Part shown: piece by piece, positions 36,217 through 54,868 of the stretch
Layout: each line of letters begins with the position of its first letter
Position numbering within the stretch: position 1 is the first letter of the stretch
NCBI GenBank assembly: GCA_017535315.1
Contig: JAFXUD010000012.1
Coordinates: 124,001 to 188,000 of the forward strand
DNA length: 64,000 nt
Direction: 5' to 3'
DNA from: Victivallales bacterium
GTDB lineage: Bacteria > Verrucomicrobiota > Lentisphaeria > Oligosphaerales > Oligosphaeraceae
Made by a program: the position numbers and the translations under genes
Notes under the pieces: model-generated
What the model was told of the DNA's origin: nothing
The model's input: only the letters and a program-made list of their open reading frames with translations
Databases searched by the model: none

Positions 36217-38037
36217 ATGACTTTACATGAGTTGAAGTTTAAGGAGGACAATCAGGGGAAGCCGAAGATTGTCAATGTGAGCGTCTATCTATGCGTCGCA
36301 GGAGGCGTTGGTGGACCGTATGATTTAATGCAATTGTGCAGCATGTACAAGAATGGGCAGTTGCCGCCTGATACGCTTTGCAATTTTGGCACAGGGGACT
36401 GGCAGAGGCTCTTTGACATGCCGTTGATAAACATCATACGAGAGCACTGTACTTCGCAACCTGCTGAACCAGAATCGAAACCTGCCGAGTCAGAGTCCAA
36501 GTTTGTCGCCCCGAAAGAGGATACGGCAGAGGACGAGGAGACTTTTCTGGATGATTTTCTTGTGCCCAAGACAGACGATTATATGGACGATGACTCGCCC
36601 ATGATTACCTGCCCACACTGCTGGAACGAGTTCCACCTCTCCCAGGTTAACTACATCTCAAACCACCCCTCTTTGACGGGAGACAGTGTGCTGGGAGAGA
36701 CAGCGCAGACGCGCTTTTTGCCGAGCAAGTTCAATGCGCAGGGGTATGCCATCGATGCCAAGGGGATGGTTTGCCGTGATATGGCCTGCCCGCGCTGCCA
36801 CCTGAAGATTCCTGAGATACTATTGGAGGAGAAGATAGACGTGCTCTCCATCGTGGGCTCTCCCGCTAGCGGCAAGTCCTACTACATCACGGCCTTGACA
36901 AACGCGCTGCGGAAAAATCTGCCCGAGTTCTTCGACTACTCCTTCAGTGACGCGGATGTTAGCATGAACTACATGCTGAACCACTATGAGGACCTGCTGT
37001 TTCACAACAGCTCGGACGATGAGGTTGCACTGCCCAAGACAGAACTTGAGGGAAGCAATTTCTCCTCACAGGTTAATCTGAATGGTATCACCGTCAACCT
37101 CCCCCTGCCGTATATTTTTACCTTGCGGAAAATCCACGACAATACGGTCAGCGGAAACGGCAAGGGGTTCATGCACAATGTGGTGATGTATGACAATGCA
37201 GGTGAGCACTTTGAGGCTGGACGGGACAGCGTGGCCAACCTGGCTACCATGCATCTCATTAACTCCTCGCTCATCATGTTCTTGTTCGACCCCTTCAAGG
37301 ATAGCAAGGCGGTCAAGGATTGTGATGCCAACGACCCACAGGCGACCGTGGCCTTGCGGAACATTAACCAGGGGCAGATTCTGCGTGAGATGATCAACCG
37401 CATCAAGAAGTTCCGCGGAATGGCCTCCTTTGAGAAGTCGGACAAGATCCTCACGGTCCTCGTGCCGAAGTACGATGCCTGGAGTAACTCCTTCCCGTTC
37501 GATCTGAAGGATTTGGATTTCACCGCATTGGACGAAAAGACATACACCTATGCGTTGGACTTCTCTATTGTCAAGCTGATTTCCTACTGCACGCGGCAGT
37601 GGCTGTTGGCGCGCTCGCCTGAAATCGTCTCTGAAAGCGAGGCCTTCTTCGAGACGGTCTATTTCCTGCCAGTATCGGCGCTGGGGCATTGTCCAGGCTT
37701 CGATGCGACGAAGAACATGATCGGGATAAGGCCTAGCGACATCAACCCCATCTGGGTTGATGTCCCCATCTACATCTACCTCTGGAAGAGCGGCCTGGTA
37801 CCCGCCGTTAAGACCATACTGGACGTGGAGGCAACGGAGATGCAGGGTTCCTTCAAGAACGACAGTTTCTTTTTTCTTGACCAGAAAAGCAAGAGACCGC
37901 AGTCAGTGCCTGCACTCTACTGGGGTGAGACCGTCTATGACATGAACATGGGCAAGTACCTGAGTTTCCCAGAGAAGCCTGCTGACGCGGGAGGTGACTC
38001 GTCCGCTTCTGGGACAGCGGATTCCTTCTGGAATTGA
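36217..38037 (+). CDS. GYF/zinc-ribbon GTPase of the double-GTPase (DO-GTPase2) type
   Basis: 606 residues; first gene of the system. Residues about 17-75 (VYLCVAGGVGGPYDLMQLCSM, GQLPPDTLC, DWQRL) form a GYF_2-like domain. A split zinc ribbon uses CPHC (132-135) and CPRC (191-194). The P-loop GSPASGKS is at 214-221, with switch II motif DNAG (326-329, followed by EHFE) and PKYD (417-420) at the place of the base-recognition NKxD. This matches the P-loop GTPase family named double-GTPase 2 by domain-mining studies, which is found beside GAP1 proteins. No signal or membrane segment, so it is cytoplasmic. The next gene is a GAP1-like protein. Probably an NTP-driven switch for the membrane parts encoded downstream. 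Confidence 0.75.
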   Translation: MTLHELKFKEDNQGKPKIVNVSVYLCVAGGVGGPYDLMQLCSMYKNGQLPPDTLCNFGTGDWQRLFDMPLINIIREHCTSQPAEPESKPAESESKFVAPKEDTAEDEETFLDDFLVPKTDDYMDDDSPMITCPHCWNEFHLSQVNYISNHPSLTGDSVLGETAQTRFLPSKFNAQGYAIDAKGMVCRDMACPRCHLKIPEILLEEKIDVLSIVGSPASGKSYYITALTNALRKNLPEFFDYSFSDADVSMNYMLNHYEDLLFHNSSDDEVALPKTELEGSNFSSQVNLNGITVNLPLPYIFTLRKIHDNTVSGNGKGFMHNVVMYDNAGEHFEAGRDSVANLATMHLINSSLIMFLFDPFKDSKAVKDCDANDPQATVALRNINQGQILREMINRIKKFRGMASFEKSDKILTVLVPKYDAWSNSFPFDLKDLDFTALDEKTYTYALDFSIVKLISYCTRQWLLARSPEIVSESEAFFETVYFLPVSALGHCPGFDATKNMIGIRPSDINPIWVDVPIYIYLWKSGLVPAVKTILDVEATEMQGSFKNDSFFFLDQKSKRPQSVPALYWGETVYDMNMGKYLSFPEKPADAGGDSSASGTADSFWN

Positions 38038-38058
38038 TTTTTGGGAGGTACTGGCAAG

Positions 38059-39867
38059 ATGGCACTGGAACTAATATACACATCCGTTCCCCGTGGTCTG
38101 GAGCCTGGACGCACGGGCTTCTGCACTGTGGCCATGACGCGCGGAATGAGTCCGCAGATGGTCAAGATATTAGAGGGGCTGGTGGCCTACACGCCTGTCT
38201 TCGAGCACTATGATCCGAACAGCGCCTACAACCCCGCTTCCATTTTCCACTATCCCGTGTCAGACGGACGGAATCGCTTTGAGCTGCTGGCCCGTGTCTG
38301 TTCATGTGGACTGGATTATACCAAGCGCTCCAACAAGATCGGTCACTTCATCTTGCTGTCGGAGGCGGAGAAGGCGAACGCGGCAAATGGACCGACAAGT
38401 CTGCTGGCGGATCCACAGCTTTTCATTAACGAATGGCACGGAGAGCCGCAGTACTTTACGACTGAGCGTCCGCTGAACAATCAGGAGACGGCATCAGCGA
38501 AGGCGTATGCATGGGAGCAGGCGACAGGGGATGCAGGCTGGGCGGCCTGGCTGGCTGAGTCATATATGGCGAATCCTGACAAGCCCTGCTTCGTAGTCTT
38601 TGATCCGTTGCAACATACCAATCTTCAGGCTTTGGTGGCCGAATCGTTGATGCTGTTGCCGAAACGAAAGCGTTGGTCGGTCACCTGGAACACCTACATG
38701 ACGGCGATTTCCGCTGGCCTACCGACCTGCAATTGGCGTTTCTGCACGGCGAATCCTGCCGTAATGAGCGCGATTGGCTGCGTCTCGGGTGCGAACATTC
38801 TGGATTTGCGGCAAAGTCTTGGCTCCGCTGGTGAAAGCCCTCTGCGACAGTGTGCCAGGATGGGAAGCGACCTATATCCAGAGACGACGGAGAGAATGGT
38901 CTCCACGCCAGCAGTGCCGACCTCCTCGTCTTCCAGCGAAGGCCCGTCGCTTGTGGCGATGATGCAGAAACGGCTGGAGGAACAGAAGGCTGAGGAGCTG
39001 GCAGAACTCTCCAGCAATAAATCGAAACTGCGCCTGAAGAATCTGGATGAACCAGCACAACAGGGAGTTCCATATGGCGGATACCCAGTGAATGGAGGTT
39101 ACCAAGTGAATGGAGGCTACCCCGCGAATAGTGGAACGTCAAATAATTATATGCTGTGGTTAATAATTGTTGCACTTCAGTTTATTATAATTGCGGGGTT
39201 GGTGGTCTTTATTGTCAGGGAGAAGAGTGAAAAACAAACGATTATTGTGCAAATGGAGCGTCAAATCAATCAGTTACAAAAACAGATAGAGAAGAAGGGA
39301 TCGACTGAAAAGCCGATGGAGAATCAACCTGAACAGAGCCAAAGCAATGAACAATGCAGGAGTGTTTTCGCCTCTGATATTGAAAAGACGGACAATGGAC
39401 AATGTGCGGATAATACTATGTCTGACTTTGAAAAGACGGGCAGCGAAAAGCATGGTTCAAAGCCCGCCCCTGAATTTGGAAAGGCGGGCGAATCGAACGG
39501 TTTGCAGCCTCCATTACCGCCGGAGAACAGAAGATCGGATAAGACAAATGAAAAACCAAGTGAGGGGACGTTGCCATCCCTTCCAGGTGATATGAACGGA
39601 AGGAGGCCAGGTGAATCGGAAGATTTGCAGCCTCCATTACCGCCAGAGAACGGAAGATCGGATAAGACAAATGAAAAACCGAGTGAGGGGGCGTTGCCAT
39701 CCCTTCCAGGTGATATGAACGGAAGGAGGCCAGGCGAATCGGAAGATTTGCAGTCTCCATTACCGCCGGAGAACGGAAGACTGAATGGGGAAGGGAGGTC
39801 TGGAAGGAGAGGGCATGGAAAGCAAAAAAAGTTGGAAGATAGTTTGAAGTCTCATATTAGGCAATAA
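38059..39867 (+). CDS. GTPase-associated protein (GAP1-like) with membrane anchor and repeat tail
   Basis: 602 residues from ATG 38059 (GGGAGG upstream). The N-terminal 270 residues match the GAP1 N-terminal domain: LIYTSVPRGLEPGRTGFCTVAMTRGMSP, FEHYDPNSAYNPASIFHYPV, CGLDYTKRSNKIGHFILL, NNQETASAKAYAWEQATGDAGWAAWLAES, LPKRKRWSVTWNTYM. A Gly/Tyr-rich linker leads to a membrane helix near 363-385 (YMLWLIIVALQFIIIAGLVVF). A short coiled coil and a hydrophilic tail follow. The tail has a 41-residue unit (LPPENGRSDKTNEKPSEG...) repeated two to three times, encoded by 123-bp DNA repeats at 39490-39800. Known GAP1 proteins are linked to GTPases of this type. Here the anchor would bring the GTPase to the membrane complex. 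Confidence 0.75.
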   Translation: MALELIYTSVPRGLEPGRTGFCTVAMTRGMSPQMVKILEGLVAYTPVFEHYDPNSAYNPASIFHYPVSDGRNRFELLARVCSCGLDYTKRSNKIGHFILLSEAEKANAANGPTSLLADPQLFINEWHGEPQYFTTERPLNNQETASAKAYAWEQATGDAGWAAWLAESYMANPDKPCFVVFDPLQHTNLQALVAESLMLLPKRKRWSVTWNTYMTAISAGLPTCNWRFCTANPAVMSAIGCVSGANILDLRQSLGSAGESPLRQCARMGSDLYPETTERMVSTPAVPTSSSSSEGPSLVAMMQKRLEEQKAEELAELSSNKSKLRLKNLDEPAQQGVPYGGYPVNGGYQVNGGYPANSGTSNNYMLWLIIVALQFIIIAGLVVFIVREKSEKQTIIVQMERQINQLQKQIEKKGSTEKPMENQPEQSQSNEQCRSVFASDIEKTDNGQCADNTMSDFEKTGSEKHGSKPAPEFGKAGESNGLQPPLPPENRRSDKTNEKPSEGTLPSLPGDMNGRRPGESEDLQPPLPPENGRSDKTNEKPSEGALPSLPGDMNGRRPGESEDLQSPLPPENGRLNGEGRSGRRGHGKQKKLEDSLKSHIRQ

Positions 39868-39960
39868 CGGCTTTCATGGAGGAAAATGATGAGTTCTTCA
39901 TTTACAATCCCCAAAAAAACAGGAAAAAAAGAACAGGTTCAGTCAAAGGAGGGTCTGAGT

Positions 39961-40740
39961 ATGGTTGGTGAAACTATGAAACGAGATTATTTGAAGATAT
40001 TCTTTATTCTAGTTGTGCTGTTTTGGGCAATGGGTAGCCAGGCGAGTGTGGTGGAATTCAATGGGTGCGGAATGACGACAGGTTGTGCCTTTGAAACAAA
40101 AGAATATTTCCTCCAGACACCAGAGGAAACAAAGGTCGATAGCTTTGGCAAATCATACAAATGCCGCACAGATGATACAGGGATAAACCGAATCCTTCTT
40201 TGCGAAGGATATACCCCTCCTAAAAGCCTGGATGTTTTTAAACTCCATAGAAGGTTGGATTGTCTGATGGGTTTCTTGAATATTGCGCGAAAAAACAAGC
40301 TTTTAGATAATGACAAGATAAACATCATCAAGGATAGATTAGATAAAATTAGAACAGAGGGAGGTTACAGGTTTTTCAACGGGCGTTATTGGATTTACTA
40401 CTATCATTGGAATATTAATTTCCAAGCCGTCCAACAGACTGTGATAGTATGTGAGAGAGAAGCGGGAAAGAACTATGCGACATACTATGTCAAATGGAAC
40501 AGAGAAAGAATCAAGACATGCCAGGAGAGAACGACGATATTAAACACATGGTTTAAACAACAGAAGATGACACATTCTAAACTTGAGGACTACCATACAT
40601 GGGCACCAGAGTCAATAGGAGTGGTTTCCGCAAGAAATATTGATTACTTGGAAAAGGAAGTCATTTTTTACGAACAGGAAGGTGCCAATGATTTCCAGAC
40701 TTTCCTTGAAGAGTGGCGCCGTGGAGTCTATCCTCATTAA
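39961..40740 (+). CDS. Exported protein of unknown function
   Basis: 259 residues from ATG 39961, chosen because AGGAGG lies eight bases upstream and a signal peptide follows (MKRDYLKIFFILVVLFWAMGSQAS). An in-frame ATG at 39886 with a closer GGAGG is possible and would add 25 polar residues. The mature protein has four or more Cys (NGCGMTTGCAF, YKCRTDD, LLCEGY) that could form disulfides, then a helical region (LHRRLDCLMGFLNIARKNKLL, NYATYYVKWNRERIKTCQERTTIL). No family recognised. Base composition is more AT-rich than the GTPase genes. Position in the operon suggests a periplasmic part of the complex. Confidence 0.6.
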   Translation: MVGETMKRDYLKIFFILVVLFWAMGSQASVVEFNGCGMTTGCAFETKEYFLQTPEETKVDSFGKSYKCRTDDTGINRILLCEGYTPPKSLDVFKLHRRLDCLMGFLNIARKNKLLDNDKINIIKDRLDKIRTEGGYRFFNGRYWIYYYHWNINFQAVQQTVIVCEREAGKNYATYYVKWNRERIKTCQERTTILNTWFKQQKMTHSKLEDYHTWAPESIGVVSARNIDYLEKEVIFYEQEGANDFQTFLEEWRRGVYPH

Positions 40741-40797
40741 GTAATCAGTCTTCTCCACTTATAGTTTGACGAGGTATTTGAAAATCGGGAAACGAAT

Positions 40798-43700
40798 ATG
40801 GCCATTAATATTATAGCAGAAATCAGACAATTCATGCGTCAAGAAGATTTGACGGACAGGGATAGGATCGAGCGCCTGATGGATGGTTATATATCGGTTG
40901 TAAGGGAGTATAACGCCCTCTGCGAGCGGGTGCGTGGCCTGATCAAGAACAACATGGTGGAGGAGTTGGAGCGGTTTCTCAACGAGTTGGAGACGCCTTT
41001 GCAAGAACAGTATAAGGAGTTGCGGCAGCCAGCGGTGAAGGAGTTTCTGGAGATGGCGGAACTGTACGGCCTGGAAGTGCCCGCGCTGGAGAATGTTTTT
41101 GAGGAGATACAGGGGACGATGCTGAGCAGCATGGGGTTGCGTCCGCTGCTTATCCGATACCGCCAGATTGCCAGGAGCAATAACCTTCAGGCGAAGGTGG
41201 CGCTTATCCGCCAGATACTGGCGTTGAATCCAAAGGATGCGCTGGAGTGGGAGCGTAACCTGACCAGTTTTGAGGAGGAATGGAAGTTACAGTTGCAGGA
41301 GAGCGCCAAGCAGGCGATTCTATCCAAAGACTATCAGGAGTTGAAGCAAATTCAGGAGACCATATTGGAGGAGCCTTGGAAAACCCCCTTCAACGAACAT
41401 GTTGTGGTGAAGATGGCGCAGGTTTTGGAGGAAGAGGAGAAGCGGGCGAAGAAGCGGTTGTGCGAGCAACTCATTGCCTCCTCAGAGTCGATGTTGTCGC
41501 AGCCAGGGAAGCTGAAGGATGTGACAGCGTCCCTGGCGAAGGTGAATGCCCTTCAGATGGAGGGCAGTCAACTGGATTCCGACTGGCAACGACGCCTTGT
41601 GACCTTGGAAGAAAACACCAAAAAGCTTGTAGCGCAGGCGGCAGAGGAGGAGAAGTTTGCCAAGCTCTTCTTTGAACTGGAGCAGAAGATGAACGCCAAC
41701 GCACCTGTGGAAGAAGTCGATAAGATATTCTACGAGATGCAGCGGCTGCGGCGCGAGATTCCCGACATCACCATGAGGCGGGTTGATACTTACCGCCAGA
41801 ACGCGGTCATGGCCGCGAAACGGAAAAAGGGCATGATGCTTGTCATCGGCCTGATGACGGCTGTACTGCTTCTAGGTGCGGGAGTTGTGGTATTCAGGGC
41901 AGTCTCCAGAAGTCTGAGCATCAATGAGTATAGTGCCAGGCTGCGTACCGCCATTGACGACCAGGCGGCTCTCTCGGATGTCGGTTATGAGATTCTCAAG
42001 GAGATCGAGACGAAGGTGCCCGACATCCGAAACTCAAAGGAAATAGCGTCGCTGGCCGAGGAGGTTACCGCGAAGCGCAAGACGGAGGAAGGGAAGCGCG
42101 CCAGGTTCAAGGAACTCCAGTTGACACTTTCCACGCAGATGGAAAATTATTCGGAGAACGCAGTTTCCATTGTGGAGTTGATGAAGGAGATTCAGGGACA
42201 GGCTCTTCCCGAACACCAGAAGGAACTGGAGACCTTGACGCAATTGCACGACGAAAGGCGCGCCAAGTATGTGCGCGTCCAGGATTCCGCCTACCGCAAG
42301 CTGTGCGGGGATGCGGGTGATGCCTACATCGCGATGAAGACGGCGATGTCTGAGCACCGCTTTGACGATGCTCGCGAATACCTGCCCACCATCGCGGAAA
42401 AACTCAAGGCAGCCAATGAAATACCCGATGTCTCCTTCGATGCAAAGAGCGGGCTGAAAAACCTGGTTGAACAATATGTCCAGGCGGCAAAGACACTGGA
42501 GCAAAGTGTGATAGACAGTGAAATGGAGACCAGGCTCAAGTCGCTGGAAAAAAAGATGAAGGATTTCAGTGCCCATATTGACAATCAGCAGCTTGCGATG
42601 GCGGACGCGCTTTGCAAGGAAATAAATACGGAAGCGGTGGAGATTACACGCGACATAAAGAATGCCAGCACGTCATTGAGAAACCAATTTGCAACCTTAT
42701 TGGAAGACATCAAGGGATTCAATGGACGTCTGGATGCGGTTCGCAACCTGATTGCCGAGGAGGAGAAGGCGCTGACAAATGCCTTGGCCCAAAAAAAGTT
42801 GCAGGATGTGCAGTGGGCAATTCAGGAATTCCAGTCGAAGTATCCAAGCTTTTACAATAAAAAGGAAATAGCCAAGTTGATGGATGACTTTTCCAAGAGC
42901 CAGGAAGAGGCTGTCAAGGAGTATGATGCAGTACTCCATGCGAGAGGCCAGCGCTTCAACCAACTGGTCGAGCAGGTGGGGAAAGGGATGCTTGAGGAGT
43001 TGTTGAAACGCCGTGATGCGTATATTGCCAATCCCGTCTATATGCTTGGATTCACCAATACGCAAAACAATGTGCATGTGGATTTATACTTGAAAAGGAC
43101 GGATTTGGACAAGGCGGAGGAAGGAGTGCGATTCGACAAAAAGATGGCGAGCAGTTTATACTTCATCAACGACGCCAATGTAATGGGCTTGGAGAGAGAG
43201 GCGCAGGTAAGGATGGATTTGGACCATCATGTTTTGATGATTGGTAATAAGGTCTCATTCCCCATGACACTGGATTACCCTGGGTTGAATGACATCCGAA
43301 ACAAATCTTTTTTTAACTCTCCAGGCTACTATGGAACCTGGCTGCTTTCCATCAAGAATGACAGTTTTGATTTCAGTAAGCTGGAAGGATGGGAGAAGTT
43401 GGACAAAAGCCTTGAGATTTTGTTCAAGGAGAAATCCGATGGCATCCGAACCATTCACGAATGGCTTGGAATCATGGATTCTGTACTTGCCATCTCACAA
43501 GCGTTCCAGCAGGGCGGAGAATTCGAGGCGACGGAACTCCTGAATCTGAAGCAGGAACTTTTTAACCTGCTGGCTATATTGCCGAAAGAAAGCAGTTGGC
43601 AGTCAGCTTCATGGCTCTATCAGAATGAATGCAGTGAGTTCTACAAGAAGCTGAAAGAATTTGTCTATGGCGACTTTATAAAATGCGGTTTTCTACCGAC

Positions 43701-43977
43701 AATGAAACGTCTCGGGGAAAGAAAGGTGGAGGATCAGAAGGTGCTTGTACCCTGCGGGGTCATGGCGTGGCGCACATTGGATGGCATTTCCAACTGGTAT
43801 TTTTACTATACTGACCTTCCAATAAACAGCGAGGGGCCGTTGTTTTTCGCAGACCACGGCCAAAAGAAAAGCATCCAAATTGGAACCTATCGCGAACAGG
43901 GCTATAAACTAAACTGGAATTACAGTGGGGGCGAGGATTTGCCCAAGGGCTATTATGTTGTGTTCATCAAGAAATAA
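40798..43977 (+). CDS. 1059-residue membrane-anchored coiled-coil protein
   Basis: The first 340 residues have no export signal and are helical (ERLMDGYISVVREYNALCERV, repeats of QxxLxxL type). A single membrane helix lies near 344-365 (MMLVIGLMTAVLLLGAGVVVF), preceded by basic residues (AAKRKKG). The remaining 690 residues begin with a long coiled coil (to about 740), then a globular C-terminal domain (LHVDLYLKRTDL, SSLYFINDANVMG, SPGYYGTWLLSIKNDSFDF, WRTLDGISNWYFYYTDLP, GYYVVFIKK). Topology is therefore cytoplasm in, periplasm out. It would span the envelope and link a cytoplasmic regulator to the cell wall or outer membrane. It is 12 bp before the proton-channel gene. No known family. Confidence 0.65.
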   Translation: MAINIIAEIRQFMRQEDLTDRDRIERLMDGYISVVREYNALCERVRGLIKNNMVEELERFLNELETPLQEQYKELRQPAVKEFLEMAELYGLEVPALENVFEEIQGTMLSSMGLRPLLIRYRQIARSNNLQAKVALIRQILALNPKDALEWERNLTSFEEEWKLQLQESAKQAILSKDYQELKQIQETILEEPWKTPFNEHVVVKMAQVLEEEEKRAKKRLCEQLIASSESMLSQPGKLKDVTASLAKVNALQMEGSQLDSDWQRRLVTLEENTKKLVAQAAEEEKFAKLFFELEQKMNANAPVEEVDKIFYEMQRLRREIPDITMRRVDTYRQNAVMAAKRKKGMMLVIGLMTAVLLLGAGVVVFRAVSRSLSINEYSARLRTAIDDQAALSDVGYEILKEIETKVPDIRNSKEIASLAEEVTAKRKTEEGKRARFKELQLTLSTQMENYSENAVSIVELMKEIQGQALPEHQKELETLTQLHDERRAKYVRVQDSAYRKLCGDAGDAYIAMKTAMSEHRFDDAREYLPTIAEKLKAANEIPDVSFDAKSGLKNLVEQYVQAAKTLEQSVIDSEMETRLKSLEKKMKDFSAHIDNQQLAMADALCKEINTEAVEITRDIKNASTSLRNQFATLLEDIKGFNGRLDAVRNLIAEEEKALTNALAQKKLQDVQWAIQEFQSKYPSFYNKKEIAKLMDDFSKSQEEAVKEYDAVLHARGQRFNQLVEQVGKGMLEELLKRRDAYIANPVYMLGFTNTQNNVHVDLYLKRTDLDKAEEGVRFDKKMASSLYFINDANVMGLEREAQVRMDLDHHVLMIGNKVSFPMTLDYPGLNDIRNKSFFNSPGYYGTWLLSIKNDSFDFSKLEGWEKLDKSLEILFKEKSDGIRTIHEWLGIMDSVLAISQAFQQGGEFEATELLNLKQELFNLLAILPKESSWQSASWLYQNECSEFYKKLKEFVYGDFIKCGFLPTMKRLGERKVEDQKVLVPCGVMAWRTLDGISNWYFYYTDLPINSEGPLFFADHGQKKSIQIGTYREQGYKLNWNYSGGEDLPKGYYVVFIKK

Positions 43978-43989
43978 GGAGAAGGATAG

Positions 43990-44955
43990 ATGGTACGTTA
44001 TGAACTGAATTTCCAGGAGCTGGACCCCGAGGCGAAAATGGGGCTGACACCCCAGAAGTACACGGCTGTCAGCGCGATATGGACTTTCTTCCTGGGGCTG
44101 CTGTTTACTGGAGTCTTCTACGGGGCGATGTATCCGCTCCACGCGCGGCACAAGTGGCAGATGGTCGATATGTTCTTTCACGGCGGCGTGGAGAACCGCT
44201 CTACCATCCCCTACTTTACGATGTTCCTGACCTGCTGGTGCCTGGCGTTTCTCTTTGTCAAGTGGCGCAAGCTGGCCGCGCAGCGGAAGGCGCTGTCGTT
44301 GGTATTCACCCCTCCCGACAGCCGTTTCGTCATCACGCGGCTGATTGCGGGGCCGCTGGTCAACCAGTTGCACCAGCGTGTCTATCAGAGCGAGAAATTC
44401 ATGCTCTTCTGGCGGATTGAATGCGCCCTGAATGAGCTGGACAACTTGGGGCACGTCTCCGAGGTGTCGGCGGTGATGAACGACCTGGCGGAGAACGACG
44501 CCAACCTGGTGGAGAGCAGCTATACCCTGACGAAGGGGCTCATCTGGGCCATCCCCGTGCTGGGCTTCATCGGGACGGTGCTGGGGCTAAGCCAGGCGGT
44601 TGGCGGCTTCGGCTCCGTTGTCAGCAGTGGGGCTGATTTGGAAACGCTGAAGGACGCGTTGAGCGGCGTGACCTCTGGCCTTGGCACGGCCTTCGAGACG
44701 ACGCTCATCGCGCTTGTCGCGGCGTTGATTGTCCAGTTGCTCATGACGCTTCTGATGCGCAAGGAGGAGGAGTTCCTTGACGAATGCTCAACCTACTGCT
44801 ATGCCAATGTGACCAGCAAATTGAAGATTTTCGGCGAGAATGAGACCGACAACCTCTCAAGCGTTTCGGCGGGGCTTCTTGACGGAAATATTAGTGTAAC
44901 TGGCGGCCTTGGTGCAGCCATGGACACGCCTGACGGCACGGCTGAAAAGAAGTAA
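43990..44955 (+). CDS. MotA/TolQ/ExbB-type proton-channel subunit
   Basis: 321 residues, ribosome-binding site AAGGAGAAGG. Four membrane helices lie at about 26-48, 73-91, 183-205 and 236-256. The third holds IPVLGFIGTVLGLSQAVGG with Thr196, the family position that lines the ion path in TolQ and MotA. The fourth follows GLGTAFETTLIALVAAL, also typical. The long loop between helices 2 and 3 is cytoplasmic and helical (LNELDNLGHVSEVSAVMNDLAENDANL). Pentamers of this family surround two ExbD/MotB-type helices and rotate on proton flow. The next two genes supply such helices, so this is the motor core of the system. Confidence 0.88.
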   Translation: MVRYELNFQELDPEAKMGLTPQKYTAVSAIWTFFLGLLFTGVFYGAMYPLHARHKWQMVDMFFHGGVENRSTIPYFTMFLTCWCLAFLFVKWRKLAAQRKALSLVFTPPDSRFVITRLIAGPLVNQLHQRVYQSEKFMLFWRIECALNELDNLGHVSEVSAVMNDLAENDANLVESSYTLTKGLIWAIPVLGFIGTVLGLSQAVGGFGSVVSSGADLETLKDALSGVTSGLGTAFETTLIALVAALIVQLLMTLLMRKEEEFLDECSTYCYANVTSKLKIFGENETDNLSSVSAGLLDGNISVTGGLGAAMDTPDGTAEKK

Positions 44956-44979
44956 AGGCTTTCAGAGAGGCAGAATGAT

Positions 44980-46790: not shown

Positions 46791-46801
46791 GGATGATGGC
46801 A

Positions 46802-49006
46802 ATGATGAAACGGATTTGGGTGATTGTGATTGTTTGTCTGTGTGGCATGGCATTTGTTTCCTGCAAGCCGAACCCCCCGAAGGAGGCGAAGGCAAAGGAA
46901 CTAGTGGAGACGCATTTCAAGGAGAAGGGGTATGCGGTGAAATGCGTGACACTGGGCGCATATAGTCAACTTGGAGAGGGTAGATGGTCTGCGGAAGTGG
47001 AGGTCAAACGGGACGATGACGAACAGATGTTCACCTACGAGGTGGAGTTCAAGGCACTAAAGAAGGGGTATGAACTATCCTGCGGCTTCGAGTATATGCT
47101 TGAACTGGACGACCTCGTAAAGAGGAAAGTGAACGAAAATATCAACAAAAACCAGTTCAAAATCCTCTCAATAGGGAAAGTGCCGCAGAAAACGGATGGG
47201 GCTGTCAACAAGGACGTGAAACCATTTTCTTTGGGCGTGGAGGTTAAATACATGCTCTTTGACCCCTCCCGTATACCTGAAGGGGATGTCTCGGCGCAAC
47301 CGAAGAAAGAGGCTCGTGGCGAAATCGGTTTCTCCCCTGAGATTACGCAGTTGCAGACAAGGTTGTTCAACAAGGACATGTTGCTTTTAGGGGTTCTTGA
47401 GGAATGCATCAAGGAGCAGATTGTCAATGAGTTTATGGAGGAGTATTTTATAACGGTCACAGTGGATGCGTTTCAGTCTCTGTACGAGAATGGCAAGAAC
47501 GGTTATTCGGGCAAGGCGAAAATCTCGAATAAAAAGCGAAAGCTATCTGGTCTGCTCAGCTTTGACCTGGTTCTCGTGGAGAATGGCTTCTGCAAGGTGA
47601 CCTGCCACAAAAATGGTTTTGAGAAATGGATGGTGGACGAGGGGAAGGATGCCAAATGGCGTAAACGCCGTCTTGAGATTCTGGCACAGGCCTGGAAGCT
47701 GGCCTGGGATCCAGAGAAACTCCATGACGAGGAGTACCATCCACTGGGAAACGCATTGGTCGAGATGGCGAACAATGCCATTAGGAATGAATACAGATCA
47801 AGTTTTTGGGGGGACTATACAAAGCTGAAGCCTGAAGAGAAGCTCAACTATATGTCCAGCATCATCACCACCCAAACGATATCCTTTGAGGGGCAGAGTT
47901 TCACCAAAAGCATGCTTGGGAGTGAATATGGGGCAATCAGTGTGAACACCCTTCCGCCTCTGCCCACTTTGTTCGATTCCAGTTCACTTGACTCGGATAA
48001 GTTTCCAAAGGTGGATTTGGAAACATGGGAAAAGGAGATAGAGATGGACATCAAGCGGGAACTGGAGGAAAAGTACGATCTCCGATTCATGTCGGATTCC
48101 GATTATCTTGAGAAGGCGTATCCCATTTATCAGAAACTTGACAAGGCGACTGTCACGGTAAAGGAGGAGCGGGGCGTGAAGAATGTGAAAATCATAGGAA
48201 TGGTCAAGGCCATTGGCGAAAACAAGGTTATGATCGGTCCACGAACCATCCTTATTGAAGACCTTACTGAAGAAAGCCGACTTAGTTTTGACATGAATTT
48301 TCGCGAAAAAAAGTTCAAGGAAATCCATTTCAATGATGCAATGAGGCTGAAGTTGATTACTCAACTCCGTCAGCCCATGCATGATCGTCGCCTCTGCATC
48401 AAATTGCAGGAGGCTGGGTATCTGCCCAATGTCTTCAAGGCGAAAACAGGTCTATACAACCCCGATGCGGAAACTTGGGTCTCGCAATATGATTTCCTGG
48501 CTCACTGGCTACGGGCGCACCTCATTGCCAAGGATCTCCTGGAAAAGGAAGGCTATGTCTATAGCCTGAACATGAAGAACCGCTACGAATGGATGCCGAA
48601 GAAGTGCGCGGAAAACTTTGCCACCTACCTCAGGGTTAAGAACGCGCGGCTGATCCATTTGGGAGAGGTTATGAGGGAACGCAGGAAAGAGCTTGAGAAG
48701 ATGAGAATGGATGGCTACTCCGATGAAGCCATTGAACGTGCCATCTGGAGGGAATTCGGACGAACGAACCAGGGGGATTACGGCAGATGCCTCTTCTGCA
48801 AGGGGACTGGCATGGAAGTGAAGTACACGGGTGGTGGGTTTTACAAGAAGATAGAATGCCGTGCCTGCTACGGAACAGGAAAAACCTCCAATGTCGATGA
48901 CGTAACTCTGGACGCAAGTGGAAATGTCGTCGAAAACACTGTCGAAGAATTCGAGGACGAGGAGTTCTGGAACACTGGCACAGTGGTTCCAGTACCATTA
49001 GAGTAA
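46802..49006 (+). CDS. Large lipoprotein with C-terminal DnaJ-like zinc motif
   Basis: 734 residues. Several ATGs occur (46793, 46802, 46805); 46802 is best placed after AAGGATGATGG. The signal MMKRIWVIVIVCLCGMAFVSCKP has a lipobox with Cys21, so the protein is lipid-anchored. Residues about 25-110 resemble the beta-rich C-terminal domain of the 276-residue protein further downstream (WSAEVEVKRDDDEQMFTYEVEFKALKK). The middle is mixed helical. Near 663-695 two CxxCxGxG-type motifs (CLFCKGTG and CRACYGTG) form the zinc site known from DnaJ, surprising in an envelope lipoprotein. It starts 11 bp after ExbD-like subunit 2 and so belongs to the complex. Family unknown. Confidence 0.6.
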   Translation: MMKRIWVIVIVCLCGMAFVSCKPNPPKEAKAKELVETHFKEKGYAVKCVTLGAYSQLGEGRWSAEVEVKRDDDEQMFTYEVEFKALKKGYELSCGFEYMLELDDLVKRKVNENINKNQFKILSIGKVPQKTDGAVNKDVKPFSLGVEVKYMLFDPSRIPEGDVSAQPKKEARGEIGFSPEITQLQTRLFNKDMLLLGVLEECIKEQIVNEFMEEYFITVTVDAFQSLYENGKNGYSGKAKISNKKRKLSGLLSFDLVLVENGFCKVTCHKNGFEKWMVDEGKDAKWRKRRLEILAQAWKLAWDPEKLHDEEYHPLGNALVEMANNAIRNEYRSSFWGDYTKLKPEEKLNYMSSIITTQTISFEGQSFTKSMLGSEYGAISVNTLPPLPTLFDSSSLDSDKFPKVDLETWEKEIEMDIKRELEEKYDLRFMSDSDYLEKAYPIYQKLDKATVTVKEERGVKNVKIIGMVKAIGENKVMIGPRTILIEDLTEESRLSFDMNFREKKFKEIHFNDAMRLKLITQLRQPMHDRRLCIKLQEAGYLPNVFKAKTGLYNPDAETWVSQYDFLAHWLRAHLIAKDLLEKEGYVYSLNMKNRYEWMPKKCAENFATYLRVKNARLIHLGEVMRERRKELEKMRMDGYSDEAIERAIWREFGRTNQGDYGRCLFCKGTGMEVKYTGGGFYKKIECRACYGTGKTSNVDDVTLDASGNVVENTVEEFEDEEFWNTGTVVPVPLE

Positions 49007-49060
49007 CTGCTTCGGATTGCAACTCATCACTGCCCTATCTCAATAGGTTTTTCCCATATT

Positions 49061-50181
49061 ATGAAACTGTTCATAAAGACACAAGGCAGGATTCTTGGCC
49101 CAATGAAGTGGGAAAGGATTCTCAAGACGGCGGACAGGGGATGCCTTGCGCCAGATGCGACTGTTTCCGATAATCAAGTGAACTGGCTTAACGTTGACGA
49201 GGCACGTAAACTTCTTGAAAAAAAGGAATCGACTGCGGCGGTTGTTTTTTCATCACGGTTTCAGAGCTCACACTCCCTTTCAACAACTCCATTGCAGAGC
49301 GATTCGGATATTTCTCACAAATGCCTAGAATGGACTGAGTTGAAAAGCTCCATGGAGACTGAATCGGATTTTCAGGGGAAGTCTCTAAAACAAATCAACG
49401 ATGCACAAAATGAAATTCAAGAGGCCATCGTTGGCGCAAAGAGCCAGAGTTTTTCTCGACTGCTTTTGCTAGAAAGTGGGATGGCGATACTGCTGGTCGT
49501 ATGGACTATTGTGCTTTGGTTAAATAGAGACTCTTCATCTTCCAAAGACCATGATGACAAGGGAATAACGGGTGAGGTTCTGACATCACGTCAAATCAAT
49601 GAATTGGCTACACCGAGTGTCCTTGCTGTTTGGGTGGAAACGAATTCTGGTTGGAGTACTGGATCGGGCATTCCCGTAACGCAACGGGATGTTCTGACAA
49701 ACAGACATGTCGTGGAGGAGATTGGAGAAGGTGGAGAAGTGCTGGTTTATAATGAAAAATGGGATAATCCAAGGGGGAAAACTGCAAAGAAAATCATCGA
49801 CTGTTGATTTGGCGTGGAAGTTATGAATGATTCTTTTCCAGTCAAGCCGTTGAAGACTTCCAACAACAAATCGTAACGCGGCGATAACGTTGACGCATAC
49901 GGCTATCCTGGATATGCGTACGATTTCGGAAAGGAGAATACAAAGGTGAGAGGAACAAGCGGACAAATTTCAGCGGTGGATTTGCCTGAGAAAGGAGCCT
50001 TGCATTATGAGCATACTGCTGCATTAAACCATGGCAATAGCGGTGGTCCACTTTCAATGACCATGGTGAAGAGGTAGATGTGAATACCTGGATCATTGAA
50101 AACACGAACAGTTCTTTTTTTGCAATAGAAATCAGTGAACTCAAAAAGGTCTTCCCACGTCTTTGGAATAAGGCACAATAA
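49061..50181 (+). pseudogene. GYF-domain trypsin-like protease, broken by frameshifts
   Basis: The intact part is 248 codons (to 49807): GYF_2 domain (MKLFIKTQGRILGPMKWERIL, about 1-55), linker, membrane helix (LLLESGMAILLVVWTIVLWL, about 143-163), then the start of a serine protease with catalytic His in VLTNRHVVEE. After the stop, the same protein continues in other frames. From 49887 to 50076 one reads DAYGYPGYAYDFG... and NHGNSGGPL, which contains the catalytic Ser. From 50055 to 50181 another frame gives FNDHGEEVDVNTWIIEN and the end LKKVFPRLW. At least two frame disruptions and a TAA near 49874 therefore separate the His and Ser parts. Other operon members are intact, so this is recent decay, or sequencing errors. 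Confidence 0.75.
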
Positions 50182-50232
50182 TAAGGAAAATGGCGGATTA
50201 ACTGTATTCAAATCAAGAAAAGGTCTATAACA

Positions 50233-51087
50233 ATGAAACTCTTTGTAAATTATCAAGGCAAGATTTTGGGACCGTTGGACTGGGAAAAGATTCTTTTCGC
50301 AGCGAAAAAAGGACGTTTCGCAGAGGATGTGACCGTTTCCGACGATCGAGTGAACTGGATCTCCATTGACGATGCACGCAAACTGTTTGAGAAGAGCAAG
50401 ACAGTTGAGCGGAAGGAGCCAGCTCTGATTGCTCCGTCTTCACAACACCAGGGGATGCAAGCATTCTCGCTTGGAACACCCAAGGGTGGCTACCCGGGCG
50501 GCACGCAGGGCGGCACTCATGGAGACTATCCTGGCGGCGCGCAGGGGGGCTACCCAGGTGGCGCGCAGGGGGGCTACCCAGATGGTGCGCAGGGGGGCTA
50601 CCCAGGTGGCGCGCAGTCAGGTTATCAGGGAATGCAGCAAATGAACGGTGTGTGGAATGGTGTTCCCAATAATGCAGCTGGTTCATATAGACAGTCCGTT
50701 TTGCCTGCTGTTTCTGCGGGTATTATTATTGCAATCATCATTGCAGTGATTGTCATTGGCGGCATTGGCGGTTTTTATTTTTTCATGAATCGAAGTGTCT
50801 ATAGTGATGTTAGCAAACACATTGATCTGTGGTTGAAGGCTGTTCAAAATGGCGATGGGGTTTCTGCATACGCTACGGACTTTGATATCCCATACTCGCC
50901 AGTCAGTTGGAAAATAATTACTGACAAATCAGAGTTTAAAGCCGGCAAAGAGACATACGAAGTCAAGTTATTGATGGAATCGTCTAACAAGGATGGTATC
51001 CCAATCAGAGCCACTTGGACGTTAGTTATCCGCAGGGACAAGAATCGGAAGACAGGGTTTGTCATAACCTATGTCAATGTTAATTGA
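50233..51087 (+). CDS. GYF-domain membrane protein with GGYPGGAQ repeats
   Basis: 284 residues. N-terminal GYF_2 domain (MKLFVNYQGKILGPLDWEKILFAAKKG, DDRVNWISIDDARKLFE), very similar to that of the preceding pseudogene. Residues about 85-135 are a Gly/Tyr/Pro/Gln-rich linker made of an 8-residue unit (GGAQGGYP) encoded by 24-bp DNA repeats near 50485-50620. A membrane helix lies near 160-185 (SAGIIIAIIIAVIVIGGIGGFYFF). The exported C-terminal 95 residues (SDVSKHIDLWLKAVQNGDGVSAY, YEVKLLMESSNKDG, TWTLVIRRDKNRK) form a small alpha/beta domain. GYF domains bind proline-rich peptides; the Pro-rich 479-residue protein of the same operon is a possible partner. Confidence 0.65.
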   Translation: MKLFVNYQGKILGPLDWEKILFAAKKGRFAEDVTVSDDRVNWISIDDARKLFEKSKTVERKEPALIAPSSQHQGMQAFSLGTPKGGYPGGTQGGTHGDYPGGAQGGYPGGAQGGYPDGAQGGYPGGAQSGYQGMQQMNGVWNGVPNNAAGSYRQSVLPAVSAGIIIAIIIAVIVIGGIGGFYFFMNRSVYSDVSKHIDLWLKAVQNGDGVSAYATDFDIPYSPVSWKIITDKSEFKAGKETYEVKLLMESSNKDGIPIRATWTLVIRRDKNRKTGFVITYVNVN

Positions 51088-51105
51088 AAAACACGGGGCA
51101 ATTCG

Positions 51106-52497
51106 ATGCATGTGAGATGTCCAAATTGCGGATGCACATTCGAGGTGGAAGAATCGCAATGGCGCAAACTGGTTGCATGTCCGGTGTGCCAAAAGGACGT
51201 TATAGCTAGAACCGTGTCGTTCTCAAAGGCTACAAAAGGGATAACGCCTCCTCCGCCGACAAACGAGATAGTTTCTTCTCATCCGACAGAGATGAAGTTT
51301 CCTCCTCCAACAGAGAAGGTAACACCGCTGACAAGTATGGTTCCTCCCTCTTCAGTTGAGAAGGTACCACCGCCAAAAGTAACTTTTTCAACGCAGGGAA
51401 AGTCTCCCTCAATAAAAGCGATCAAGTGGACGCGATCGATATGTCTATTCTTATTGGTCATTTCGTTTTTGGTGGTTTTCATTTGGATTAGAAGCAGCAT
51501 TGCCGCCGCGAACATCGTGATAGAGACGTTGGTTCATAATCCAGACAAGTGTTTGTCTTTTGAGGAGATTGCAATCGTGCGTAAAGCCGCCGAGAAGGGG
51601 TACGCCAAAGCGCAATTTTTTCTTGGAGAATGCTATCAAAAGGGCAATGGCGTGGCTAATAATCCGTTTGATGCAGTCAACTGGTACCGTTTGGCCGCAC
51701 GCAGGGTAATCATATGGGGAGGATATGCTGAAGCGCAATATAAACTTGGGGTGTGCTATCGTGATGGCAAGGGTGTGAAACAGGACTACGCAGAAGCAGT
51801 GAAATGGTTCCAAAAGGCAGCCAAGCAAGGGGTTGCTAAAGCACAAAACGATCTTGGGAGTTGCTATCGTGATGGTAGGGGTATAGCAAAGGATAATTTT
51901 GAGGCGGCCAAATGGTTCCATTTGGCCGCCGAGCAAGGGGCTGATCTTGCACAATACAATCTCGGAATTTGCTATTGTAATGGCACTGGTGTAGATAGAG
52001 ACCACAAGGAGGCATTCAATTGGTTCAGCAGGGCTGCTAAGCAAGGGAATGTTGCTGCTCAACGTGACGTTGGATGCTTGTATTTTTTTGGTGAACATGG
52101 AATGACAAAAGACAATGCCAAAGCGTTTTACTGGTTTTATAAATCTGCAACGCAGGATGATGCAGAGGCACAATTTTACCTGGGTATCTGCTATATTTAT
52201 GGTTTGGGTACCAAACAGGATGACGGTGAGGGGCTCAAATGGCTGCGTTTTTCTGCTGCACAGGATTACATTGAAGCAGAATATTATCTTGGTCTATGTT
52301 GTCTTGAAGGGCAAATCGTACCAAGAGATTTGGAGGAGGCAACGAGATGGCTGGGCAAAGCTGCCATGCAGGGACATGAGAAGGCACGGCAACTCCTTAA
52401 GGTATTAACGACGGAACGAGGCACCGCGCATAAGGAGAATTGCTTTTCTTCTGATGCATCCAGAAGCGTTGAGATAATCAGAAGAAAACGGAGATAG
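51106..52497 (+). CDS. Zinc-ribbon membrane protein with seven Sel1-like repeats
   Basis: 463 residues. MJ0042-type zinc ribbon with Cys5, Cys8, Cys25 and Cys28 (RCPNCGCTFEV, CPVC). A Pro/Thr/Ser-rich linker (30-105) leads to a membrane helix at about 111-130 (SICLFLLVISFLVVFIWI). From about 160 to 440 seven Sel1-like repeats follow, each with the pattern AxAQxxLGxCYxxGxGVxxDxxEAxxWxxxAAxQG. Sel1 repeats form a helical solenoid for protein binding; here they would be on the outer side of the inner membrane if the zinc ribbon is cytoplasmic. The three downstream relatives share the same N-terminal module. It begins 18 bp after the previous gene. Confidence 0.75.
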   Translation: MHVRCPNCGCTFEVEESQWRKLVACPVCQKDVIARTVSFSKATKGITPPPPTNEIVSSHPTEMKFPPPTEKVTPLTSMVPPSSVEKVPPPKVTFSTQGKSPSIKAIKWTRSICLFLLVISFLVVFIWIRSSIAAANIVIETLVHNPDKCLSFEEIAIVRKAAEKGYAKAQFFLGECYQKGNGVANNPFDAVNWYRLAARRVIIWGGYAEAQYKLGVCYRDGKGVKQDYAEAVKWFQKAAKQGVAKAQNDLGSCYRDGRGIAKDNFEAAKWFHLAAEQGADLAQYNLGICYCNGTGVDRDHKEAFNWFSRAAKQGNVAAQRDVGCLYFFGEHGMTKDNAKAFYWFYKSATQDDAEAQFYLGICYIYGLGTKQDDGEGLKWLRFSAAQDYIEAEYYLGLCCLEGQIVPRDLEEATRWLGKAAMQGHEKARQLLKVLTTERGTAHKENCFSSDASRSVEIIRRKRR

Positions 52498-52499
52498 AC

Positions 52500-53330
52500 A
52501 TGCATGTGAGATGTCCAAATTGCGGATGCACGTTTGAGGTGGATGATTTGCAATGGCGCAAACTGGTTGAATGTCCAGTGTGCGGAAAGGCTATAGAAGC
52601 AAAGACTGTGCAGGTCAATATGGTTTCCCATACTCCTTCAAACGGGATGATTCCGCCGTCGTCTTCGGACGGTGCCGTTCCGCCGACGACTTTGATTGAG
52701 ACGGTGCAGCCTCCGCGCGGGAAAGTAATGTCATCACAGCAGAAGTGTGGTGAACTCAGTATCACGACCAGACTTTGGTTGCTGCTTTGTTCACAGATCA
52801 GGGGCTGCTTTTCATTTAGCGGCTTTGTATTGTTCTTCGCTTTTTTCTGTGCAGTCATGGGGTATTTGAGCTTTTCAAACTCTATGAGTCCAGATGAAAT
52901 CGCAAAGAAGGCTCGTGAAACGGACTTGCCTGAATTCTTTCAGAACAAGGAGTTTGTTTATTACGGCGGTGTCGTGAAGGATTTGAAACTCAGCATAAGC
53001 GAGAAAAAGCTATATACTGGGGAAGTGACATTTACCCTTGATGGTAAAACACTTGTACGCCCTATTTCAGTGAGAATCAAGGAAGATGGAGAATATGAGT
53101 ATGGCGTGGATTTTGATTATGCACAACACGATGATTATCTTGAGGAAGATGCGAAGTGGATTATGAATAACATCTTAAGAGCAAATAACCTAAGCGCGAA
53201 AATACTCAAAACGTATGTTGTATCGCCAGGAGTATTCCAGGCGACATTGCGATTTGACGAGGGTGTGAAAGTGGTGAGAGTTCGTGTCCAACGCAAGAGC
53301 AGGAAATATTTCTACGAGGTCATAGAATAA
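52500..53330 (+). CDS. Zinc-ribbon membrane protein with C-terminal beta-rich domain
   Basis: 276 residues; two bases after the previous stop, with GGAG. The first 35 residues are the same zinc ribbon (Cys5, 8, 25, 28; CTFEVDDLQWRKLVECPVC) as in the neighbours. A linker (SSSDGAVPPTTL) precedes a membrane helix at about 100-122 (FSGFVLFFAFFCAVMGYLSF). The C-terminal 140 residues (EFVYYGGVVKDLKLSISEKKLYTGEVTFTL, GEYEYGVDFDYAQHDD, LRFDEGVKVVRVRVQRKSRKYFYEV) resemble part of the 479-residue neighbour and the lipoprotein upstream, so this domain recurs in the operon. Function unknown. Confidence 0.65.
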   Translation: MHVRCPNCGCTFEVDDLQWRKLVECPVCGKAIEAKTVQVNMVSHTPSNGMIPPSSSDGAVPPTTLIETVQPPRGKVMSSQQKCGELSITTRLWLLLCSQIRGCFSFSGFVLFFAFFCAVMGYLSFSNSMSPDEIAKKARETDLPEFFQNKEFVYYGGVVKDLKLSISEKKLYTGEVTFTLDGKTLVRPISVRIKEDGEYEYGVDFDYAQHDDYLEEDAKWIMNNILRANNLSAKILKTYVVSPGVFQATLRFDEGVKVVRVRVQRKSRKYFYEVIE

Positions 53331-53428
53331 ACGAAAGTGAGGGGACTTCATATCTTTTTGCGGAATTGGGGTAATGGATATGTCAACGATGTCCCTAATG
53401 AAGCATAAAGACAAGATAGGAGCAGATA

Positions 53429-54868
53429 ATGCAAGTAAGATGCACAAGTTGTGGATGCACGTTTGAGGTAGAGGACAGGCAGTTGGGCAAACTGGTTGAA
53501 TGCCCACTGTGTGGCAGAGCAGTTGATGCGCAGCCAGCATCAGCAACCATGGCTCCGCCACCTCCGCTGCCGAGCGATATGGCTCCGCCACCGCCTCCGA
53601 CTGGCATGGTTCCGCCTCCAAACGGTATGATGCCACCGCCTCCGACTGGCATGGTTCCGCCTCCAAACGGTATGATGCCACCGCCTCCGACTGGCATGGT
53701 TCCGCCTCCGATCGGGATGGTTCCGCCGCCTCCGATCGGGATGGTTCCGCCGCCTCCGATCGGGATGGTTCCGCCGCCAGTGGAGATGAATGGGCCTGGT
53801 TTATCGACAATGCAGAGATTTCTCATATATCTGGGCATGACCATTCTTCCAATTTTAGGTACTCTGGCATGGCTGTTTGCCAATCGTGCTTCAGAGACAG
53901 AAAAAGGTTTTGAATGGTTTGCTCTTATCTTTGTGTTGTCGCTCATTCTGCCGTTGGTGCTGATGATAGTCAATCACGTTCGTTTTTTCATGGTTTGGAA
54001 AAACAACAGACGGAAGGCAATCCATCTCTTAGTACACACCTGGGCAGGGATTGCCGCGACAATTCTTTTCCTTTGTGGGATTGGAGTTTTCAATAATGTT
54101 GTGCCAGAGGTGTTTTTTGAGTTGAAAACCGATAAGGTTGAATCCCTAACCAGACTAAGGCTTCAGGAGCTTTTTAACATGCCGTCCAATGGAGGCGAGG
54201 AGGAAAACGGAAAATACATTTACGCAGGGGCGGTGGTAAAGAGTCTGAAGTTGGAGCATACGGGCAGATGCCAATTCGAAGGGCGCATATTCTTTGAACT
54301 GGACGGGCAGGAGTATTCGCGCCCTATCATCATAAGTTATGCGCGAAACAATCTTTCCGATAATCCTGAATGGATTTTTGACTTGACGCATGGCGGCTAT
54401 GAGAACACCCCTGATGAACTGCGCGAGGATGTAATCATAGCCTTCAGGGACTGGCTTCAAAGCCGAAACGAAGGGCTGGACAACTGGAAGATCGAAGATA
54501 TCGGAATCCTTTCAAGCACACATCCGAGATACAATTTCCAACTCAAATGCGTGCGCATCGGCAACACGGGAAAGAAGCACTTCGGCGAGATGAAGATGGT
54601 ACTGACCTTCAAGACGCTTAGCTCTGGCCGCTACCATCCCGTGATGAGTTTCTACGACATCGACCACGAGATACATCATAGTTTTTTTATCTACCACTCG
54701 CTGGGTCGTAAAATGAAGGATGGCACGGTCATCAAAGAATGTCGTCTGAAAAAATGCACGGGGAAAATCGATACCTTTATGGTCAGATACTCGGATAATG
54801 TCGTCAATTCCATATATGTCTCGTTCGGGGACGACTTTTCATGGAAAACCCATGACAAGGAGCGCTAG
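53429..54868 (+). CDS. Zinc-ribbon membrane protein with Pro-rich repeats
   Basis: 479 residues; AGGAG before ATG. Zinc ribbon Cys5, 8, 25 and 28 (RCTSCGCTFEV, CPLC). Residues about 45-125 are Pro/Met/Gly repeats: a 15-residue unit (PPPTGMVPPPNGMMP) then an 8-residue unit (PPIGMVPP), encoded by 45-bp and 24-bp tandem repeats at 53560-53780. Three hydrophobic helices lie at about 132-150, 162-183 and 198-220. The soluble C-terminal part (from 230) has YIYAGAVVKSLKLEHTG and IFFELDGQEYSRPIIIS, like the 276-residue neighbour, then about 150 residues of unique alpha/beta sequence ending at a DFSWKTHDKER tail. It is the last gene of the operon. The Pro-rich part is a candidate ligand for the GYF domains (inference). 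Confidence 0.65.
   Translation: MQVRCTSCGCTFEVEDRQLGKLVECPLCGRAVDAQPASATMAPPPPLPSDMAPPPPPTGMVPPPNGMMPPPPTGMVPPPNGMMPPPPTGMVPPPIGMVPPPPIGMVPPPPIGMVPPPVEMNGPGLSTMQRFLIYLGMTILPILGTLAWLFANRASETEKGFEWFALIFVLSLILPLVLMIVNHVRFFMVWKNNRRKAIHLLVHTWAGIAATILFLCGIGVFNNVVPEVFFELKTDKVESLTRLRLQELFNMPSNGGEEENGKYIYAGAVVKSLKLEHTGRCQFEGRIFFELDGQEYSRPIIISYARNNLSDNPEWIFDLTHGGYENTPDELREDVIIAFRDWLQSRNEGLDNWKIEDIGILSSTHPRYNFQLKCVRIGNTGKKHFGEMKMVLTFKTLSSGRYHPVMSFYDIDHEIHHSFFIYHSLGRKMKDGTVIKECRLKKCTGKIDTFMVRYSDNVVNSIYVSFGDDFSWKTHDKER

Follow-up and report, generated by a model that had tools for sequence, protein, structure and literature searches.

Positions 36217–54868 of the window (the whole 64,000-nucleotide stretch of DNA that was analyzed, from a Victivallales bacterium that the GTDB scan placed near MAGs of the goat rumen) harbor a gene block encoding a DO-GTPase2, a GAP1-N2 protein and a long coiled-coil protein (CC4), together with an ExbB-type channel subunit and two ExbD-like subunits. 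The block probably (at a rough probability of 0.6) specifies a trans-envelope machine that would be switched by the GTPase, driven by protons and coupled through CC4. GTPase-GAP1 pairs have been predicted to form conflict systems (Kaur et al., 2020; PMC7159879), and the present locus is classed here as a motor-bearing variant of these GAP1-N2 GTPase systems. No published description of GTPase/GAP1 paired with ExbB/ExbD was found in the openly available literature searched, which included the main text of Kaur et al., in agreement with the first-pass annotation, which had regarded the combination as undescribed. The term GAP1-N2 itself was used, in the same literature, by Kaur et al. (2020) alone.

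The thirteen open reading frames reported by the first-pass annotation were all confirmed by position on the plus strand, and the GTPase, GAP1 and ExbB classes were confirmed by Pfam matches above the cut-offs. A search of the products against NCBIfam gave no useful names. The genes are as follows:

36217..38037, plus strand: DO-GTPase2 with N-terminal GYF domain and zinc-ribbon Cys pairs (PF19993, PF14237); core gene 1
38041..39867, plus strand: GAP1-N2/GAP1-M protein with a transmembrane (TM) helix at 374–392 and a low-complexity outer tail (PF20013, PF20014); core gene 2
39886..40740, plus strand: exported or signal-anchored protein, hydrophobic segment 38–56; accessory
40798..43977, plus strand: CC4, 1059 amino acids with one TM, defined by homologues and an AlphaFold model, no named family; core gene 3
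43990..44955, plus strand: MotA/TolQ/ExbB-type channel subunit (ExbB) with four hydrophobic helices (PF01618); core gene 4
44980..45852, plus strand: ExbD-like subunit 1, Asp15 at the TM, FSFQD motif; core gene 5
45852..46790, plus strand: ExbD-like subunit 2, Asp16 at the TM, LLLDTMCNTFG motif; core gene 6
46757..49006, plus strand: lipoprotein-like exported protein, hydrophobic segment and Cys near the start; accessory
49061..49807, plus strand: GYF-TM fragment of a frameshifted GYF-TM-trypsin gene (GYF family match)
50233..51087, plus strand: GYF-TM protein, its homologues in other loci mostly directly before ExbB
51106..52497, plus strand: zinc-ribbon, TM, Sel1-repeat protein (PF08238, 6e-72); accessory
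52500..53330, plus strand: zinc-ribbon TM protein, paralogous to its neighbours; accessory
53429..54868, plus strand: zinc-ribbon TM protein with a Pro-rich PPPPTGMVPPP stretch; accessory

The GTPase, the GAP1 protein, the coiled coil and ExbB of the original parts list were upheld, whereas two of the frames listed there as GYF or zinc-ribbon genes had been misread, one being the trypsin-gene fragment and the other the Sel1 protein.

In the Pfam search, the GTPase matched DO-GTPase2 (PF19993) with 28.1 bits, just above the cut-off of 27, and GYF_2 with 27.7 bits against a cut-off of 25.8. Its catalytic residues are intact, the G1, DNAGE and KxD motifs as well as the zinc-binding Cys residues being invariant or nearly so across 46 homologues. 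A sequence search of the PDB returned only a weak match to Der. The GAP1 protein scored 81.9 bits for GAP1-N2 and 28.9 bits for GAP1-M (cut-offs 24), and its outer tail was found to diverge fast, as measured in the loci L139 and L140.

The ExbB product (321 amino acids) matched PF01618 with 36.4 bits against a cut-off of 22.9, and Thr196, Thr237 and Thr238 were invariant in 16 homologues; no PDB relative was found by sequence. The two genes directly after ExbB each encode a protein with a single N-terminal TM, and the membrane Asp at the putative proton site was kept in 61 of 63 (ExbD-like 1) and 62 of 63 (ExbD-like 2) homologue pairs, as judged by eye from the output. The proposal of an ExbD-like pair thus held for the membrane Asp and the gene position, but not for sequence, the ExbD model PF02472 giving no match to either protein at E up to 1. 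By sequence, the PDB search with the ExbD-like proteins returned coiled coils only. The AlphaFold model of ExbD-like 1 (mean pLDDT 86) showed a small α/β domain at the C-terminal end, for which the top match among 350,542 PDB chains was TolR (5by4), weak at E 0.017 and with a score little better than that of unrelated chains; the TolR-like fold of the model is suggestive only. The ExbD assignment is hence based on gene order, the TM Asp and the weak fold match to TolR. A conventional ExbB/ExbD-type cluster is also present elsewhere on the same contig (C49:114955).

CC4 consists of a cytosolic helical domain (1–340), a TM at about 345–366, a helical rod (373–745) and C-terminal β domains. The cytosolic helical domain was modeled with confidence by AlphaFold and the β domains with less. 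The TM lay at 344–393 in nearly all homologues from relatives and GTDB loci, and the charge distribution (mean +3.7 before the TM vs. +1.0 after it) follows the positive-inside rule. PDB sequence searches with CC4 returned only coiled coils and designed bundles and no relative, the fold search gave no significant match, and a conserved polar residue of the TonB/TolA kind was looked for in the TM and not seen. Topology and position suggest that CC4 could act as a transducer.

The gene order had been proposed as a check in other PVC genomes, and the core order GTPase-GAP1-CC4-(GYF)-ExbB-ExbD-ExbD was found to recur in Lentisphaerota, Verrucomicrobiota and Planctomycetota as well as in a few Desulfobacterota, with a recurring third gene of ∼1000 amino acids bearing a TM near residue 350 and a GYF-TM protein often placed before ExbB. 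ExbB homologues were present in 24 of 99 relatives, and the GTDB scan yielded 383, the best 80 of which were examined at their loci and came from Lentisphaerota, Verrucomicrobiota, Planctomycetota and Desulfamplus. Among these 80, the GTPase, GAP1 and CC4 trio was present in 46 of the 50 loci having at least 9 kb upstream; the exceptions comprise one locus that ends at a contig edge and three Desulfamplus loci, and in L175 and L183 of Desulfamplus ExbB occurs without the trio. The order is rearranged in L186 and L187, with the genes still together. In a phylum-wide draw of 388 genomes, 36 strong ExbB matches (≥260 bits) were obtained, 29 of them within 15 kb of GAP1-N2 and the other seven at contig ends, whereas none of 24 weaker ExbB homologues stood beside GAP1-N2 (Fisher p 8e-11). 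The ExbB of these loci thus forms a clade of its own that goes with the GTPase module. The gene block is far from a chance arrangement: the linkage of GTPase and motor suggested by the first-pass annotation was borne out, the genes being neither scattered in relatives nor habitually placed beside an unrelated system.

The evolutionary distances of all six core proteins were correlated over 38 loci (Mantel r 0.69–0.89), and equally so within Lentisphaerota alone; these values reflect joint inheritance, to which shared genome ancestry contributes, and not contact. The core genes are under purifying selection, with dN/dS of 0.05–0.39 for whole genes or domains of close loci, several comparisons being saturated in dS and yielding no ratio. 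The ratio was 0.05–0.1 for ExbB and 0.10 for the GTPase, and 0.2–0.4 for CC4 and GAP1 in their outer parts, indicating that the inner half is held constant while the outer half diverges.

The genes encoding the outermost candidate parts differ between lineages. A protein with a vWA domain, a TM and a Gly-rich linker adjoins the ExbD genes in 21 of 46 testable loci from three phyla, and its MIDAS residues were invariant in 20 aligned members (Pfam VWA_2). In the present locus this slot is occupied by the lipoprotein-like gene at 46757..49006, a homologue of which (68% identical) was found, among the relatives, only in one congeneric genome (L041/L129). The modules carried by GYF partners across loci include trypsin, TM2 and PrsW, among others. 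Here, the frame at 49061–49807 covers the front part of a GYF-TM-trypsin gene that one or more frameshifts have disrupted, the GNSGGP motif lying downstream in another frame; the frameshift may reflect decay or an assembly error. GYF/trypsin partners have already been noted for planctomycete GAP1-N2 systems (PMC7159879).

The trio was also found in a second setting. On contig C71 of the same genome, a DO-GTPase2 that bears an FHA domain is encoded together with a short GAP1 and a homologue of CC4. Next come a PilM-family protein and, at the positions of PilN/PilO, two small proteins with one TM each; a second ExbB motor, considered for this site, is absent, the PilM-like genes standing there instead. 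The arrangement of trio and PilM-like genes recurs in relatives, one of them a closed genome, and in several other genomes the trio occurs without any motor nearby. Its occurrence in separate settings indicates that GTPase-GAP1-CC4 is a module, and this switch may have a more general action. The PilM-side trio, the vWA partner, the GYF/trypsin precedent and the MglA analogue considered below are all absent from the first-pass annotation.

On the basis of these observations, a working model of the machine can be put forward. ExbB and the two ExbD-like subunits would form a proton-driven motor in the inner membrane, with CC4 as the transducer whose cytosolic helical domain could meet the GTPase and whose TM would sit at the motor, while its long periplasmic part would carry force outward. 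From the cytosolic face, the DO-GTPase would switch the coupling between motor and envelope, GAP1 being its partner or regulator, and the GYF-TM and zinc-ribbon proteins may help as docking parts. The tip would be set by lineage, being a vWA protein, a lipoprotein, trypsin or another membrane module; given this variation, the surface partners that it binds or acts on probably differ as well.

Of known systems, the MglA-Agl-Glt focal adhesion of Myxococcus comes closest in function to the proposed machine, which would resemble it in working, with other switch and transducer families. The MglA-MglB/AglRQS/Glt/CglB gliding machinery, powered by PMF, has a TolQ-like motor controlled by a small GTPase, two TolR-like subunits and a vWA surface protein (an adhesin), and the GYF and zinc-ribbon domains of GltJ bind MglA/MglB. 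Among the products, no homologue of MglA, MglB, Glt or GltJ was recognized by Pfam, nor any Glt-type outer-membrane protein, and the GTPase belongs to another family, DO-GTPase2. Victivallis vadensis, an isolate of which carries the locus (L144), is described as a non-motile coccus, which argues against a role in motility. MglA acts both on the TolQR-type Agl motor and on type IV pili (PMC13104615, PMC7668184), to which the placement of the trio at a motor and at PilM-like genes is comparable as an analogy of design, not homology. We tentatively suggest, at slightly less than even odds, an undescribed class of envelope machines in which the switch trio plugs into either a TolQR-type motor or a PilM/N/O-like platform, an independent counterpart of the MglA system in at least four phyla.

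With the described GAP1-N2 systems, the locus shares the GTPase and GAP1 families, the zinc ribbons of the GTPase, the TM of GAP1, GYF partners with fused trypsin or TM-rich regions, and vWA, PP2C and HSP70 neighbours; it differs in CC4 and the ExbB/ExbD/ExbD motor, the main text of Kaur et al. naming no ExbB, MotA, TolQ or ExbD (PMC7159879). FNIII repeats, given there as a typical and not as a universal neighbour, gave no match in any of the thirteen products up to an E of 1. Membership in or close kinship with Zorya, which the first-pass annotation had cited as a motor serving phage defence, did not hold up. Both have a MotA/MotB-like motor outside flagella, and ExbB gave weak profile matches to ZorA, confined to the general MotA region; however, it lacks the long ZorA tail, a GTPase is present instead, ZorC/D/E were not found among the eight main products, and no OmpA-like peptidoglycan-binding domain was found in the ExbD-like proteins. 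Membership in Zorya was therefore rejected.

An anti-phage or conflict system, in which GTPase-GAP1 would sense attack and release the motor or an ion flow so that the envelope is depolarized or damaged in a Zorya-like manner, is doubtful as an alternative. It is kept alive by the original proposal for GAP1-N2/DO-GTPase systems (Kaur et al., 2020; PMC7159879) and by the patchy occurrence of ExbB in close kin (present in 5 of the 28 further genomes from its genus and family). The variable tip genes would also fit, as would the PP2C and HSP70 genes close to some loci, a feature of other GAP1-N2 systems too. However, the core lacks a nuclease or toxin effector, and inheritance is mostly vertical, the ExbB tree following class in its grouping and requiring 8 changes where 7 would be the minimum. 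No clade member was found in the viral contigs or plasmids searched, the latter giving two remote matches to other ExbB families, and a mobile or phage origin was rejected on these grounds. The downstream flanks matched four PADLOC families at E 1e-15, a handful of 109 proteins; a defence-island setting was rejected on these few matches, a weak test having no matched control. For the proposed machine, a role in surface attachment, in moving surface material or in maintaining the envelope seems to us likelier than phage defence, in view of the taxonomy-following inheritance, the lack of viral or plasmid members and, weakly, the few defence genes in the flanks.

A regulated energizer of the TonB/Tol kind, serving import across the outer membrane or its stability, throttled by the GTPase and having CC4 in the role of TonB/TolA, is improbable. 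The ExbB/TolQ channel family, an ExbD/TolR-like subunit, whose tail is tentatively TolR-like, and the TM-plus-periplasmic-rod topology of CC4 are shared with TolQRA and ExbBD-TonB; in contrast, the locus has two unequal ExbD-like genes, no sequence match to TolA/TonB and an attached GTPase and GAP1, its core includes no TonB-dependent receptor, TolB or Pal, and the same contig already holds the conventional cluster. That GTPase-GAP1-CC4 and ExbB-ExbD-ExbD are two modules merely co-regulated in one operon is very unlikely, for although the trio occurs alone or with PilM-like genes and two Desulfamplus loci have ExbB without it, outside Desulfamplus no member of the ExbB clade was seen to lack the trio at loci whose contig permits the test, all six proteins co-diverge, and the rearranged loci keep the genes together.

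The GTPase-switched machine proposed here would give predicted conflict GTPases, whose action is not known, a place in a machine that can be tested and for which a power source, a transducer and a variable tip are proposed. It could explain some of the envelope biology still unaccounted for in Planctomycetota, Verrucomicrobiota and Lentisphaerota. Should the GTPase gate the motor, GTPase control of TolQR-type motors would have arisen at least twice. Direct study is possible as the locus is present in isolates, namely, Victivallis vadensis DSM 14823, Botrimarina colliarenosi, Brevifollis gellanilyticus and Desulfamplus magnetovallimortis.

Homologue searches of the relatives' loci put five frames that had been counted as parts of the complex outside the conserved core: that of the exported protein, that of the lipoprotein and those of the three zinc-ribbon proteins. 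The exported protein (39886..40740) occurs only in this locus; neither it nor any of the three zinc-ribbon proteins has a homologue at the relatives' loci, and 52500–53330 is homologous only to 51106–52497 and 53429–54868. In L138 and L201, too, the system is followed by Sel1 proteins.

The genome that carries the window (G000) harbors two further loci with related genes, one on another contig (C71) and one on the window's own contig (C49), given here with the positions in the extracted stretches L040 and L069.

C71:26041-35677 (L040:8041-17677), second DO-GTPase-GAP1-CC4 locus
C49:114622-117863 (L069:14622-17863), ExbB-ExbD-ExbD-type cluster of more conventional type, ~9 kb ahead of the window start

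The DO-GTPase of the C71 locus bears an FHA domain, and the trio is coupled to PilM-like and PilN/PilO-like genes. This type of locus (trio with PilM-like gene) was present in most of the family genomes examined, whereas the motor type of the window was patchy there.

ExbB genes were also found in the absence of the GTPase. Two Desulfamplus loci (L175 and L183) contained an ExbB of the window's clade and one ExbD without the GTPase module, in a neighborhood common to both but unlike that of the GTPase-module loci. In L061, L062, and L064, a distant ExbB was accompanied by membrane proteins and by ExbD-like genes, two in number and both small, again without the GTPase, and this gene set recurs within one family of the class.

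In the window, the block is flanked by the following genes:

34141-35457, Fe-ADH_2 family gene, glycerol-1-phosphate dehydrogenase-like, directly upstream of the block
55052-56806 and 56836-58587, minus strand, AAA-ATPase_like/PDDEXK_9 family pair (PF09820, PF08011)

The members of this pair are adjacent and highly alike, a tandem duplication adjoining the system. Within the block, remnants of a trypsin-like protease domain are spread across reading frames at 49808-50232, downstream of the GYF-TM fragment (GYF domain with membrane helix); the split may reflect decay or an assembly error.
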